Positions 2,556-7,771 of a stretch of 18,281 nucleotides of DNA are shown here, piece by piece. Made by a program: the position numbers and the translations under genes. The notes below the pieces were generated by a model. The model did no database searches. It worked only from the letters and a program-made list of their open reading frames with translations, and was not told where the DNA came from. The number at the start of each line of letters is the position of its first letter. Positions within the stretch are counted from its first letter, which is position 1. Origin of the DNA: Bacteroidota bacterium (GTDB taxonomy: Bacteria > Bacteroidota > Rhodothermia > Rhodothermales > UBA10348); NCBI GenBank assembly GCA_018623785.1, contig JAAZVD010000003.1, forward strand, positions 1-18,281, given 5' to 3'.

Positions 2556-3332
2556 CTACCGAAACGGCTTTTCTTTTTTTAGCATGCCCACCAAGTCGTT
2601 GGTCCCGATGGGGCCATGATGGTAGAGGAAGGGTTCTCCGAAGGCAGCCCCGATCCGAAACCCATAGGTGCGGGCACGTGCATCGTGCCAGTCCATGAAG
2701 GCCGGATTGGAGATGAACGTCTCCGGAGTCTGGTCCGTGATGGCATCCGTCTGGGGGTTACCGGTGTGGAACTGGGTTGCAAAGGCGCGGACCGCTTCGT
2801 TGCGTGTCTCCCAGAACTCGCTGACGTCCACGACGAGCGTGGGTTCGAACGGAATGGACTGCATGTAGTGCAGCACGTGCGGCGGGCGCCAGGGCTCCTG
2901 CGGGGCGCCAGAAGCATCGGTGGTCTCGATCTTGATCAGTCCCGACTGGAACACGGCTTCGATGATGAGCCGGGCGCCCGCCGGATGATCCGGATGGCGA
3001 CAGTCGGGCGCCGGAATGAGCAGGATGTTCGGCCGTGTGGTCCTGAGCTCGCTAATGACCTTCAGGCGGTTCTTTTTGCTGTTCTTGATGTTGCCGTCGG
3101 GAATCCCAAGATTGACCCGTCGTTCGACGCCCAGGATCCGGGCTGCCTTCTCGGCTTCCATCTCACGTACCTCAGGTGTTCCCCGTGAGCCCAGTTCTCC
3201 ACGTGTCAGGTCCGCGATGCCGACACGTCGTCCGGCTGCAACCATCGAGGCCAGCGTACCACCACAGCCGAGCTCGACATCGTCTTGATGGGAGCCGAAC
3301 GCCAAGACATCGAATTTGGGAAGCTGGGACAT
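2556..3332 (-). CDS. bshB1: Bacillithiol biosynthesis N-acetylglucosaminyl-malate deacetylase (BshB1, PIG-L/LmbE family)
   Basis: About 258 aa; cytoplasmic zinc-dependent deacetylase of the LmbE/PIG-L family. In bacillithiol synthesis BshB removes acetate from GlcNAc-malate to give GlcN-malate, the acceptor for BshC. Visible motifs are FDVLAFGSHQDDVELGCGGT (metal-site His15, Asp17, Asp18), LTRGELGSRGT typical of BshB1, and the second metal/catalytic motif RHPDHPAG at about 112-119. The first motif is HQDD rather than the common HPDD; His and both Asp are kept. I chose the ATG at 3332 (MSQLPKFD), because family members begin just before the first beta strand; a TTG two codons upstream (3338) is possible. 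It lies 63 bases after leuS and is the last gene of the minus-strand array. bshC sits on the other side of leuS, which supports the pathway call. A generic PIG-L deacetylase is the alternative. Confidence 0.85.
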   Translation of the reverse strand: MSQLPKFDVLAFGSHQDDVELGCGGTLASMVAAGRRVGIADLTRGELGSRGTPEVREMEAEKAARILGVERRVNLGIPDGNIKNSKKNRLKVISELRTTRPNILLIPAPDCRHPDHPAGARLIIEAVFQSGLIKIETTDASGAPQEPWRPPHVLHYMQSIPFEPTLVVDVSEFWETRNEAVRAFATQFHTGNPQTDAITDQTPETFISNPAFMDWHDARARTYGFRIGAAFGEPFLYHHGPIGTNDLVGMLKKEKPFR

Positions 3333-3401: not shown

Positions 3402-3707
3402 TCAACCTACGACAATATTGACCAGGCGTCCCGGAACGTAGATTTCGCGCCGGATTTCTTTACCCTCCATGTGACGGGCTACGTTCTCGTCGGCCTTTGC
3501 CGCATCCAGGATGGACTCCTTCGAGGCATCGGCTGGTACCGAGATAGTGGTACGTACCTTTCCGTTGACCTGCACGGCCAGCTTGAGGGCGTCGTCTACC
3601 AGCCATTTCTCTTCGGCTTGTGGCCATGGTTCGTAGGCCAATGACTGCTCGTTCCCAAGGCGCTGCCAGAGCTCTTCGGCCATATGTGGAGCCAGTGGCG
3701 CCAACAT
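3402..3707 (-). CDS. leuS: Leucyl-tRNA synthetase, C-terminal segment (separated from the main ORF by an in-frame TAA)
   Basis: 101 aa from an ATG at 3707 to TGA at 3402. This is the missing end of LeuRS. MLAPLAPHMAEELWQRLG is the conserved helix of the anticodon-binding domain, and AVQVNGKVRTTISVPAD followed by GRLVNIVVG is the typical C-terminal domain that contacts the tRNA-Leu elbow. It is in exactly the same frame as the 795-aa ORF upstream (start-to-start distance 2400 bases), so the break is one nonsense codon and not a frameshift. Four sense codons (PFVL) lie between the TAA and this ATG. No convincing ribosome-binding site precedes the ATG, so independent translation is doubtful. It should be read together with the upstream ORF as one gene of about 901 codons. 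Alternatives are a sequencing error, readthrough, or a true two-piece enzyme. Confidence 0.8.
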   Translation of the reverse strand: MLAPLAPHMAEELWQRLGNEQSLAYEPWPQAEEKWLVDDALKLAVQVNGKVRTTISVPADASKESILDAAKADENVARHMEGKEIRREIYVPGRLVNIVVG

Positions 3708-3719
3708 CAGGACAAACGG

Positions 3720-3722
3720 TTA
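3720..3722 (-). other. In-frame TAA stop codon interrupting leuS
   Basis: The minus strand reads ATT CCG CGA GTC CTG GCC TAA CCG TTT GTC CTG ATG, giving IPRVLA-stop-PFVLM. LeuRS homology continues without a frame change on both sides. As I recall the family, this column often holds Glu, so a single G-to-T change in GAA would explain it. All 14 gene-terminal stops in the window are TGA or TAG. Confidence 0.85.
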
Positions 3723-6107
3723 GGCCAGGACTCGCGGAATCGTATCCAGGGAAACCCATTCAGAGAGCAGCTCAATCAGACCCGCAATGGCCGTGTTGAA
3801 GGAGAGCCGCTCCATGTCCGTGGTCACACGCTCAATGGTTCGGTGCAGACCGCGCATCTGCTCGTCGCTCGGCGCGTCGTCCGACACCAGCAATACGTCG
3901 GAATCCTCGTTCACGAAGTTGCGCCAGATCCTTCGCAAGAACCGGTTCACGCCCACGATGTCGCGGGTATTCCATGGCTTGGATGCTTCCAGCGGTCCCA
4001 TGTACATCTCGTAAAGGCGTAGCGTATCGCAGCCGTAGGCATCGTTGATTTCGTCGGGGGAGACGGCATTCTTCAGGCTCTTGCCCATCTTTCCGTACTC
4101 CTGCGTGACGGGTTGCCCCTCGTAGAAGAACTCGCGGCCTTTCTGGTCCTGCACCTCCATGGCCGGGCGGCCATCCTGATCCACGACTTTGGTGGCATCC
4201 ACGGCAATGCCGCGTTCATCCCGGTAGGCGTAGGCCTGGATATACCCCTGGTTGAACAGGCGACCGAAGGGCTCCTTGGTGGACACGTGGCCCAGATCGT
4301 AGAGCACCTTGTGCCAGAAGCGGGCATACAAGAGGTGCAATACGGCGTGCTCCACGCCACCGATATATAGATCCACGCCATTGTCGCCCATCCAGTAGGA
4401 TTCCCTGGACGGATCGGCAAAGACGCTGTTGTTTTTATTGTCGATGAACCGGAGATAGTACCAGCACGAGCCCGCCCACTGCGGCATCGTATTCAGTTCG
4501 CGCTCGTAGCGTTTACCGTCGATCTCGACGATACGCCACGCTTCGTCGGCACGTGCCAAGGGTGGTCTCGGCGGCGCATCGGGGTCATCTGCCGCTGTTG
4601 GCTTGAAGTCCTCCATCGGTGGCAAGGCCACCGGTAATTCGCTCTCCTCCACTGCGCGCACGCTGCCGTCTTCGCCACGTAGGATGGGGAAAGGTTCGCC
4701 CCAATAACGTTGCCGGCTGAAGAGCCAGTCGCGCAGTTTGTAGGTAACCGTGCCTTCACCGTGGCCGTTTTCGTTCAGCCACTCTATCATCCGGGCTTTG
4801 GCCTCCTTGACGCTCAAGCCGTTCAGGAAATCGGAGTTGATGGCCGGACCGTCGCCCGTGTACGCATCGCCTTTCCAGCCATTGGGAGGCTGTACGGTAC
4901 GGATGATGGGCAGGTCAAAGACCTTGGCGAATTCCCAGTCCCGCTCGTCTTGGGCCGGCACGGCCATGATGGCGCCTGTACCGTATCCCATCAGGACGTA
5001 ATCGGCAACCCAGATCGGGATGCGGCTGCCGCCCGCGGGGTTGATAGCGTAGGCACCCGTAAAGACGCCCGTCTTGGTTTTGGAGTCAGCCATCCGGTCG
5101 ACGTCGGTCTTTCCAGCGGCTTCCTTACGATAGGCTATCACGGCCTCGCGTTGCTCGGCCGTAGTCAGCACATCCACCAATTCGTGCTCAGGCGCGAGCA
5201 CCATGTACGTGGCCCCGAAAAGCGTATCAGGCCGCGTTGTGAACACACGGATCGTGGCGTCGTGGCCGTCAACCTTGAAGTCGACGTTGGCGCCTTCGCT
5301 GCGGCCCACCCAGTTGCGCTGCATGAGCTTGACGGGCTCTGGCCAGTCTACGTCGTCCAGGTCGCCAATCAGTCGATCGCCATATTCGGTGATACGCAGC
5401 ATCCACTGTTTGAGCGGACGCCGGAATACTGGATGGTTGCCGCGTTCGCTGCGGCCTTCGTTCGTGACTTCCTCGTTGGCCAGCACCGTCCCCAAGGCCG
5501 GGCACCAGTTGACGGGTACTTCGGATAGGTAGGCTAGGCGATGCTCGGAGAGCACGGCCTCGCGCTCGGCTTCGGGGAGCGATGACCAGTCGTCCCGCTC
5601 AGCGGCAAAACGCGCTTCCAGTTCGCTGATCGGCCGCGCCTTGTCCGCCTTCTCGTCATACCAGGAATTGAACAGCTGCAGGAAGATCCACTGCGTCCAC
5701 TTGTAATAGTCGACGTCCGTCGTAGCTAGCTTGCGGTCCCAGTCGTAGCTCAGACCCAGGGCCTTGAGCTGACGCAGCATGTTGTCGATGTTCTTTTCCG
5801 TCGTGACCCGCGGGTGTACGCCGTGCTCCACGGCAAACTGCTCGGCCGGCAAGCCGAAGGCATCGAAGCCCATGGGGTGCAACACGTTGAAGCCCTTCAT
5901 CCGCTTGTAGCGGGCCACGATATCCGTAGCAATATACCCGAGTGGGTGCCCTACGTGCAGACCGACCCCTGAAGGGTAGGGAAACATATCGAGCACGTAG
6001 TACTTCGGCTTCGAAATGTCCGGATTATCCGGAGAGCGGAAGGTGCGCTCGGTTTCCCAGAAGTGCTGCCACTTCTGTTCGATGTCCTGGAAGGGATAGT
6101 CAGCCAT
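3720..6107 (-). CDS. leuS: Leucyl-tRNA synthetase, catalytic and editing part (truncated by an in-frame TAA)
   Basis: 795 aa of class I LeuRS, which charges tRNA-Leu with leucine in the cytoplasm. The HIGH signature is HVGH at 51-54 (in [16 protein letters not shown]), and the KMSKS signature is KMGKS at 673-677. The CP1 editing domain shows TTRPDT at 290-295 and [15 protein letters not shown] with the expected editing Asp at 387 (the preceding His of many homologues is Gln here). [18 protein letters not shown] is typical of the catalytic core. The ORF stops after IPRVLA, inside the anticodon-binding domain, and LeuRS sequence resumes in the same frame right after the TAA. The 795-aa product would lack about 105 C-terminal residues, including the C-terminal tRNA-binding domain, and would be expected to be impaired. 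The start is an ATG at 6107, 50 bases after bshC. All signatures are intact, so it does not look like an old pseudogene. Confidence 0.9.
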
Positions 6108-6157: not shown

Positions 6158-7771
6158 TCAGATATCGAGGACCTGGTGTTCAGACGTATCGATGTCCATC
6201 CGCTCCGTCATGCCGGAAAAGAAATCCGGACCGTATTTATTCAGGAAATATACGGGCGAGAGAAAGCGCTCTTGGGGGATTCCCATGGGAAAAAGAGCCG
6301 AAGACGCGCGCTTCAGCTGTCCGCGAAGTACGTCGTGCTGCTGCTTTTCGGATTTCAGGACCTTGGCCTTCAGCTGATTCCACTCTTTCATGAAGGCGGC
6401 ACGGGTAGCCTCGGCCGACCCCACCAGGGAACGGTCCACGCCTTCGATGACGGGTTTGATTTGGTTGATGGCCTGGTGGATGCCGGTGGAGGACTCCTTG
6501 AAGGCCTCGTCCAGGTCGGTCTCCATGTTCGAGAGCACCATCTCCCGGAACAGCTTGTCCACCTGCTCCTCGAAAGCCGGCAGCGCCACATCATTCTTTG
6601 CGAGGACCTTACCTATGCGCCGTTCCATGAGGGTCAGTGACGCCCGCGGGTAGATGACGGGCATATGCACCCCGGCCCAGTCGTAAAGCCCCTTGAACTG
6701 AGCGAAATACGCGACTTCGCCTGGACCGGCCACATAGGCGGCTGTCGGCAGAAGCCAGTCCTGCATGAGGGGGCGCGTGACGACGTTGGGTGAGAAGGAT
6801 CCCGGGTCCGTATCCAGTCGGGCCAATGCCTCCCCCAGCGAGAGCTCCTCGCCATCGCGTGTCCGGAAACCGCCGTCTACTGCATCGATAGCCGTACGAC
6901 GGCCATCCCCGTGCAGAAAGAGGTTGGTAGGCTCGGTTTGCACCTGGGCGTGCCAGGTGCCTTCCAGCTTGGCGCTGGTATCCTTCAGGCGGCGAGACGA
7001 GGTCGCAAACTCTTCCAGCTCCTTCCGGAAGAGTGGGGCAACGGCTTTCTTCAGGCCCTCATCGTCCGGAGATATATAGGCAATCCGGCCAGGGCCGAGG
7101 ATGTACTCCATCATGGCCACAAAGGCCGTGATCATGGGCGTTCCGGGCGCATAGGCGCTCCGGACTACAGCCATCAGCCCATCCTTGAAATCCGTCGGGG
7201 GTAATATCCGCTCCAGCTCCTCGAATACCGAGCTGATGCCATCAGTGACCGTCATGCGGCCTACCGCGGTTCCCTTCTCTGCATCGTCTGACGGCGTGTA
7301 GATCACAGAAACCGCGTCATCTCCCTGCAGAAAGCCCGCCGAGGCAATTTCTTCGAAGTCATGATCCTCGCCCTCCAGCCAGAATACGGGGACGACGGGC
7401 GCGCCGGTCTCTTTCTCCAGCAACTCCGCCAACTGGATGGTGCTCAGGGCCTTGTACGCGGTATAAAGCGGTCCTCCAAGCAATCCCAGTTGTTGACCCG
7501 TCACTACGACCGATGACGAGGGGTCGGCCAGTTTATCGATCAGATGACTGCTGGCGCTTGCCACACCGAGCGTGTCTGCCTGTCGCCGCATGGCTTCGAT
7601 CAGGGAGGATCGGTCCGGGTGCGCCTCCGCTGCGCGCGTGCAGGAGGCGGCCAGCACTACCGGATCCCGGTAGTCTCCATTGAAAAAGGGAGCCAGGCTG
7701 ACTGCCGATTCGGCGTAGTCCCTGAAAAGCGGGGAGAAGGAAGAAAGGGACGAAAAGGGGAGGCGGGTCAA
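6158..7771 (-). CDS. bshC: Bacillithiol biosynthesis cysteine-adding enzyme (BshC)
   Basis: 537 aa, the usual BshC length. BshC is thought to add cysteine to GlcN-malate, the last step of bacillithiol synthesis. Diagnostic motifs are [20 protein letters not shown] at about 89-107 and [16 protein letters not shown] at about 127-142. There is a Rossmann-like core, then a long C-terminal helical region (about 400-500) likely to be the coiled coil described for the family. I chose the TTG at 7771 because family members begin with a [22 protein letters not shown] stretch; no upstream Met exists in frame, and the next Met is more than 60 residues in. The TTG overlaps the upstream stop in TTGA, implying translational coupling with the nuclease-domain gene. 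With bshB1 two genes downstream it marks a low-molecular-weight thiol cluster; bshA is not in the window. Confidence 0.92.

Follow-up and report, generated by a model that had tools for sequence, protein, structure and literature searches.

An isolated in-frame TAA in the leucyl-tRNA synthetase gene of a Rhodothermales-like draft genome, probably an error in the assembled consensus

The leucyl-tRNA synthetase (LeuRS) gene leuS of a Rhodothermales-like bacterium is interrupted in the draft assembly by a single TAA at codon 796, within a frame of 901 codons. Comparison with relatives suggests that this leuS is probably ordinary, and the TAA most likely reflects one wrong base in the assembled consensus. 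Such an error would have turned a sense codon into TAA in the draft assembly, and the cell would make the full 901-residue LeuRS. We infer that a sense codon stands at position 796 in the reads or in the living population.

The leuS frame and its surroundings

The window (the whole 18,281-nucleotide stretch of DNA that was analysed) is the entire contig C230 of a draft genome of 1,873,938 bases spread over 327 contigs, with a completeness of 62.58% and a contamination of 0.07%, and the TAA lies 3.4 kb from the contig end. ORF and translation analysis placed leuS in a single frame of 901 codons closed by a TGA stop, in which the TAA at codon 796 is the sole internal stop and no frameshift occurs. 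The 795-aa and 101-aa ORFs share this frame and are separated only by the TAA and four codons (P F V L; Table 1).

Pfam analysis of the N-terminal piece identified the class I core and the LeuRS editing domain (PF13603, E 2.2e-64, profile positions 1-184 of 185), and the HIGH- and KMSKS-type motifs of a LeuRS are both present and intact, as HVGH at residue 51 and KMGKS at residue 673. The TAA splits the anticodon-binding domain PF08264 as the sequence stands, with both halves in frame: the C-terminal piece carries the second half (positions 71-146 of 148), and a profile search of the genome matched positions 7-146 across the break with one TAA inside the match. An intact congener LeuRS is 92% identical to the window protein over 901 residues, which excludes a chance origin of the frame. 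The first-pass annotation had described two ORFs in one frame with HVGH, KMGKS and the editing motifs intact and a C-terminal part free of decay beyond the stop. Its coordinates and arithmetic are right, the motifs stand with a nearly full editing domain, and the preservation of the C-terminal part is borne out by the lack of any other lesion and by nonsynonymous divergence (dN) within the congener range (see below).

Genes with PIG-L and BshC domains lie on either side of leuS (Pfam). These are a bshB1-like gene and a bshC gene, both of bacillithiol synthesis, and the DNA flanking leuS on both sides matches the loci of all six congeners. The sources of close LeuRS relatives bear names that include Rhodothermales and Bacteroidetes Order II. 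Elsewhere in the window, an 883-aa protein has a SpoIIE phosphatase domain at its C-terminal end (residues 687-881) and no other Pfam match; its middle appears, by eye, to be rich in hydrophobic segments.

Table 1 Coordinates of leuS, its parts and other features of the window
Feature	Position	Strand
leuS, complete frame including the TGA stop	3402-6107	minus
795-aa ORF	3720-6107	minus
101-aa ORF	3402-3707	minus
N-terminal part of leuS (795 codons), with the class I core (HVGH, KMGKS), the editing domain and the first half of the anticodon-binding domain	3723-6107	minus
TAA, codon 796, in the middle of anticodon-binding domain PF08264	3720-3722	minus
Four codons (P F V L) after the TAA	3708-3719	minus
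Internal ATG, codon 801; restart candidate of the first-pass annotation	3705-3707	minus
leuS last 105 codons and TGA: second half of anticodon-binding domain, C-terminal domain	3402-3719	minus
Stretch of about 40 residues in LeuRS (residues 147-188)	5544-5669	minus
PIG-L domain gene (bshB1-like)	2556-3329	
bshC gene	6158-7771	
883-aa protein with SpoIIE phosphatase domain	11056-13707	

Codon 796 and the sequence beyond it in relatives

A search of 114 genomes of the order was performed using P0001, the intact LeuRS of congener G004 (100% identity). A match spanning residue 796 was listed in 110 of the 114 genomes, own genome included (counted by eye), and none across this residue was listed in G010, G093, G102 and G113. 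Only one of the 110 genomes, the window's own, has a stop in its leuS match. The alignment of close relatives at the stop column that had been proposed on first reading gave a sense codon in 108 of 108 relatives (Glu 92, Asp 8, Lys 3, Gly 2, Ser 2, Arg 1; no stops), after leaving out L023, which ends before codon 796, and L034, which repeats L011. Codon 796 encodes Glu in three, Gly in two and Lys in one of the six congeners, and the aligned residue of Thermus thermophilus LeuRS is Arg; judged by this range of residues, the column is tolerant of substitution. The leuS genes of the congeners (G001-G006) equal that of the window in length (901 codons, 902 with the stop) and have the same neighbours, but carry a sense codon where the window has TAA. 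P0001 shares 85-92% identity with the window protein and those of the five other congeners.

The last 105 codons show no decay, because their dN between the window and the six congeners (0.070-0.191) falls inside the range found in the same region among the congeners themselves, which lack the stop (0.061-0.250 in 15 pairs). Against the nearest congener, L005, dN was 0.045 before the stop and 0.085 after it; dN was higher after codon 796 than before it in all 21 pairs and, on these comparisons, the last part of LeuRS is simply faster-evolving. Because dS reached saturation (infinite values) in 4 of the 21 pairs for the part preceding the stop and in 8 of the 21 for the part following it, neither dS nor the ratios were relied on. 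A decayed gene or pseudogene was rejected on this dN range and on the lack of any further lesion, and a chimera or bad join on the profile of identity to L005, which lies between 0.77 and 0.92 in segments of 150 bases and does not shift at the TAA.

The C-terminal 101 residues were also searched against 5.8 billion clustered proteins, and among the best 120 of 2381 matches the sole one above 86% identity was P0121, a record from a contig of 18,281 bases, as long as the window. P0123 (93 residues, 86%) was considered as a second broken leuS and rejected, being the exact end of the intact P0008. The 795-residue protein was not among the 120 listed matches of its own protein search, perhaps owing to the clustering of the proteins at 90%, and this search is therefore uninformative on the frequency of the broken form.

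A separate difference concerns a stretch of about 40 residues, present in the window protein at about 148-187, that T. thermophilus LeuRS (PDB 1h3n and others) lacks. The stretch is missing in 9 of the 110 leuS loci, including two from Balneolaceae (L093 and L105), and is full length in the other 101, many of which come from Actinobacteria. Actinobacteria are also prominent among the best named LeuRS matches, and the leuS of this group may have been transferred.

Stops in the rest of the genome and the origin of the TAA

Stops in conserved genes were surveyed in a 14% sample of the own genome, made up of 41 stretches that total 256,680 bases and include the window. The ORFs of 61 stretches of congener G003 (1,209,925 bases) were compared with this sample, using a cut-off of 55% identity for gene matches. 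The 98 resulting gene matches, none of them split over two frames, fell in 21 of the 41 own-genome stretches and comprise 32,890 aligned residues. Fourteen rows contained a stop, and leuS was the only one in which 10 or more of 20 residues matched on each side of it; a smaller run of 49 pairs gave the same leuS result. The other 13 rows were rejected because, on one side or both, fewer than 10 of 20 residues matched, and in several of them the alignment begins within 10 residues of the stop. Stops at L152 and L114 were judged from the listed ORFs to fall outside true genes, and the remaining 11 were judged from the rows alone. Among 83 placed gene ends, 58 were TGA, 14 TAG and 11 TAA. Among the genes sampled, TAA neither recurs in conserved sequence nor is avoided as a terminator. 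UAA is very probably not recoded in this genome, since the leuS stop is the only one of its kind in 98 matches and TAA is in use as a terminator.

A consensus error is favoured because the stop is single, with no other lesion in 901 codons; because it is found in one of 110 genomes, against a sense codon in every relative counted; because dN beyond it shows no decay; because the genome is fragmentary; because leuS alone of the 98 gene matches has a stop in conserved sequence and none is frame-split; and because there are no signs of recoding. Such an error had been called the simplest of four options in the first-pass annotation; the evidence favours that choice, the miscalled base itself being what we infer from it. 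Against it stand the scarcity of such errors in the sampled genes (one in 98 gene matches) and the absence of any sign of a bad join at the TAA. With 1e-5 errors per base, a genome this large would be expected to contain about 0.6 false nonsense codons (taking a 3.8% nonsense share and an assumed 88% coding), and one event in 32,890 codons corresponds to about 2.7e-4 changes per base (with a wide interval, 7e-6 to 1.5e-3); the event was found by selection, and these figures therefore serve only as a plausibility check. A literature search on false stops in assembled genomes found no papers.

Next after a consensus error ranks a real nonsense allele that is not fixed, an unlikely alternative in which the TAA is present in some cells or DNA, the assembler took the TAA branch and most of the population is intact. 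An isolated nonsense codon free of decay has the look of a very young mutation, and the C-terminal fragment was seen only from this contig among the best 120 of 2381 matches. Under this reading, cells with the TAA would have no normal LeuRS; leuS is essential in bacteria, and such an allele is therefore expected to be rare in the reads and seldom to win the consensus.

Readings with a fixed TAA and comparison with known systems

It is improbable that the TAA is both real and fixed in the species, with leucyl-tRNA still made through UAA readthrough or with a separate C-terminal subunit whose boundary lies within the anticodon-binding domain. If it were, leuS would offer a rare example of an essential synthetase that functions despite an ordinary stop codon, by reading through or bypassing it. 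As an artefact, the TAA would matter only as a warning: reads should be consulted before a single nonsense codon in a fragmentary draft genome is treated as biological.

Functional readthrough, with an amino acid inserted at codon 796 often enough to give full-length LeuRS, is very improbable. The frame downstream is conserved, and a column that accepts Glu, Asp, Lys, Gly, Ser and Arg is where readthrough would be least harmful, but TAA terminates 11 of the 83 placed genes, two release-factor family genes are present and the stop is common to no relative. No UAA-reading tRNA was found among the 14 tRNAs detected, a set that is incomplete in a genome of this completeness. Folding of the RNA around the stop and beyond it is no better than that of shuffled sequence (z +0.84 and +0.64; matched by 158 and 143 of 200 shuffles), and no Rfam match was found in the window. 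Readthrough, raised on first reading, thus gains no positive support.

The same applies to the suggestion of a restart at the nearby ATG, which would give a two-piece LeuRS with a 795-residue body and a C-terminal subunit of about 93-101 residues; this is slightly less credible still. An ATG lies four codons beyond the TAA, the 93-residue database record P0121 starts at a later Met, and a two-subunit LeuRS exists in Aquifex aeolicus (by the title of a paper cited in PMC3436685). Against this, the cut falls within the anticodon-binding domain instead of at a domain boundary, five of the six congeners have the ATG of codon 801 as an internal Met codon of an unbroken frame, and the one similar short record examined, P0123, is just the end of an intact protein. 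No ribosome-binding motif was seen before this ATG, the 20 bases upstream of it containing no purine-rich motif. Truncation of the LeuRS C-terminus is harmful; a literature search found no passage on the effect of losing the C-terminal part of bacterial LeuRS. PMC5059758 describes contact between the C-terminal domain and the variable loop of the tRNA.

That this leuS is a decaying copy, backed by an intact second one in the missing part of the genome, is as doubtful as the two-piece enzyme: the incompleteness of the genome makes the search for a second copy weak, but no other LeuRS body or C-terminus was found in the draft assembly, one full-length leuS is listed in each of the six congeners, the window leuS has no lesion beyond the TAA and its neighbours match those of the congeners. 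The second leuS envisaged on first reading was sought with both the 795-aa body and the C-terminal piece, and none was found in the 62.58%-complete assembly, where the body gave three other matches, all weak (18.6-24.1 bits). PF08264 matched three further places in the genome, none of them matched by the LeuRS C-terminal search. The best of these, C275:1-411, is an anticodon-binding domain at a contig end and probably belongs to another class I synthetase, because the LeuRS C-terminal search did not match it.

The two-subunit LeuRS of A. aeolicus resembles the leuS of the window in being encoded in two open frames, but the smaller Aquifex subunit carries the KMSKS motif and the Aquifex split point is elsewhere than codon 796; in the window KMGKS lies in the first piece, the break falls in the anticodon-binding domain and the split is conserved in no relative, occurring in the own genome alone of 110. 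Two adjoining pieces in one frame with a single stop between them do not by themselves make a split gene. Bacterial stop-codon reassignment resembles this leuS in that a critical gene contains a stop in frame; according to the introduction of PMC8629427, the bacterial stop changes described up to that time concern UGA, whereas here there is one TAA in one gene and TAA is still a terminator.
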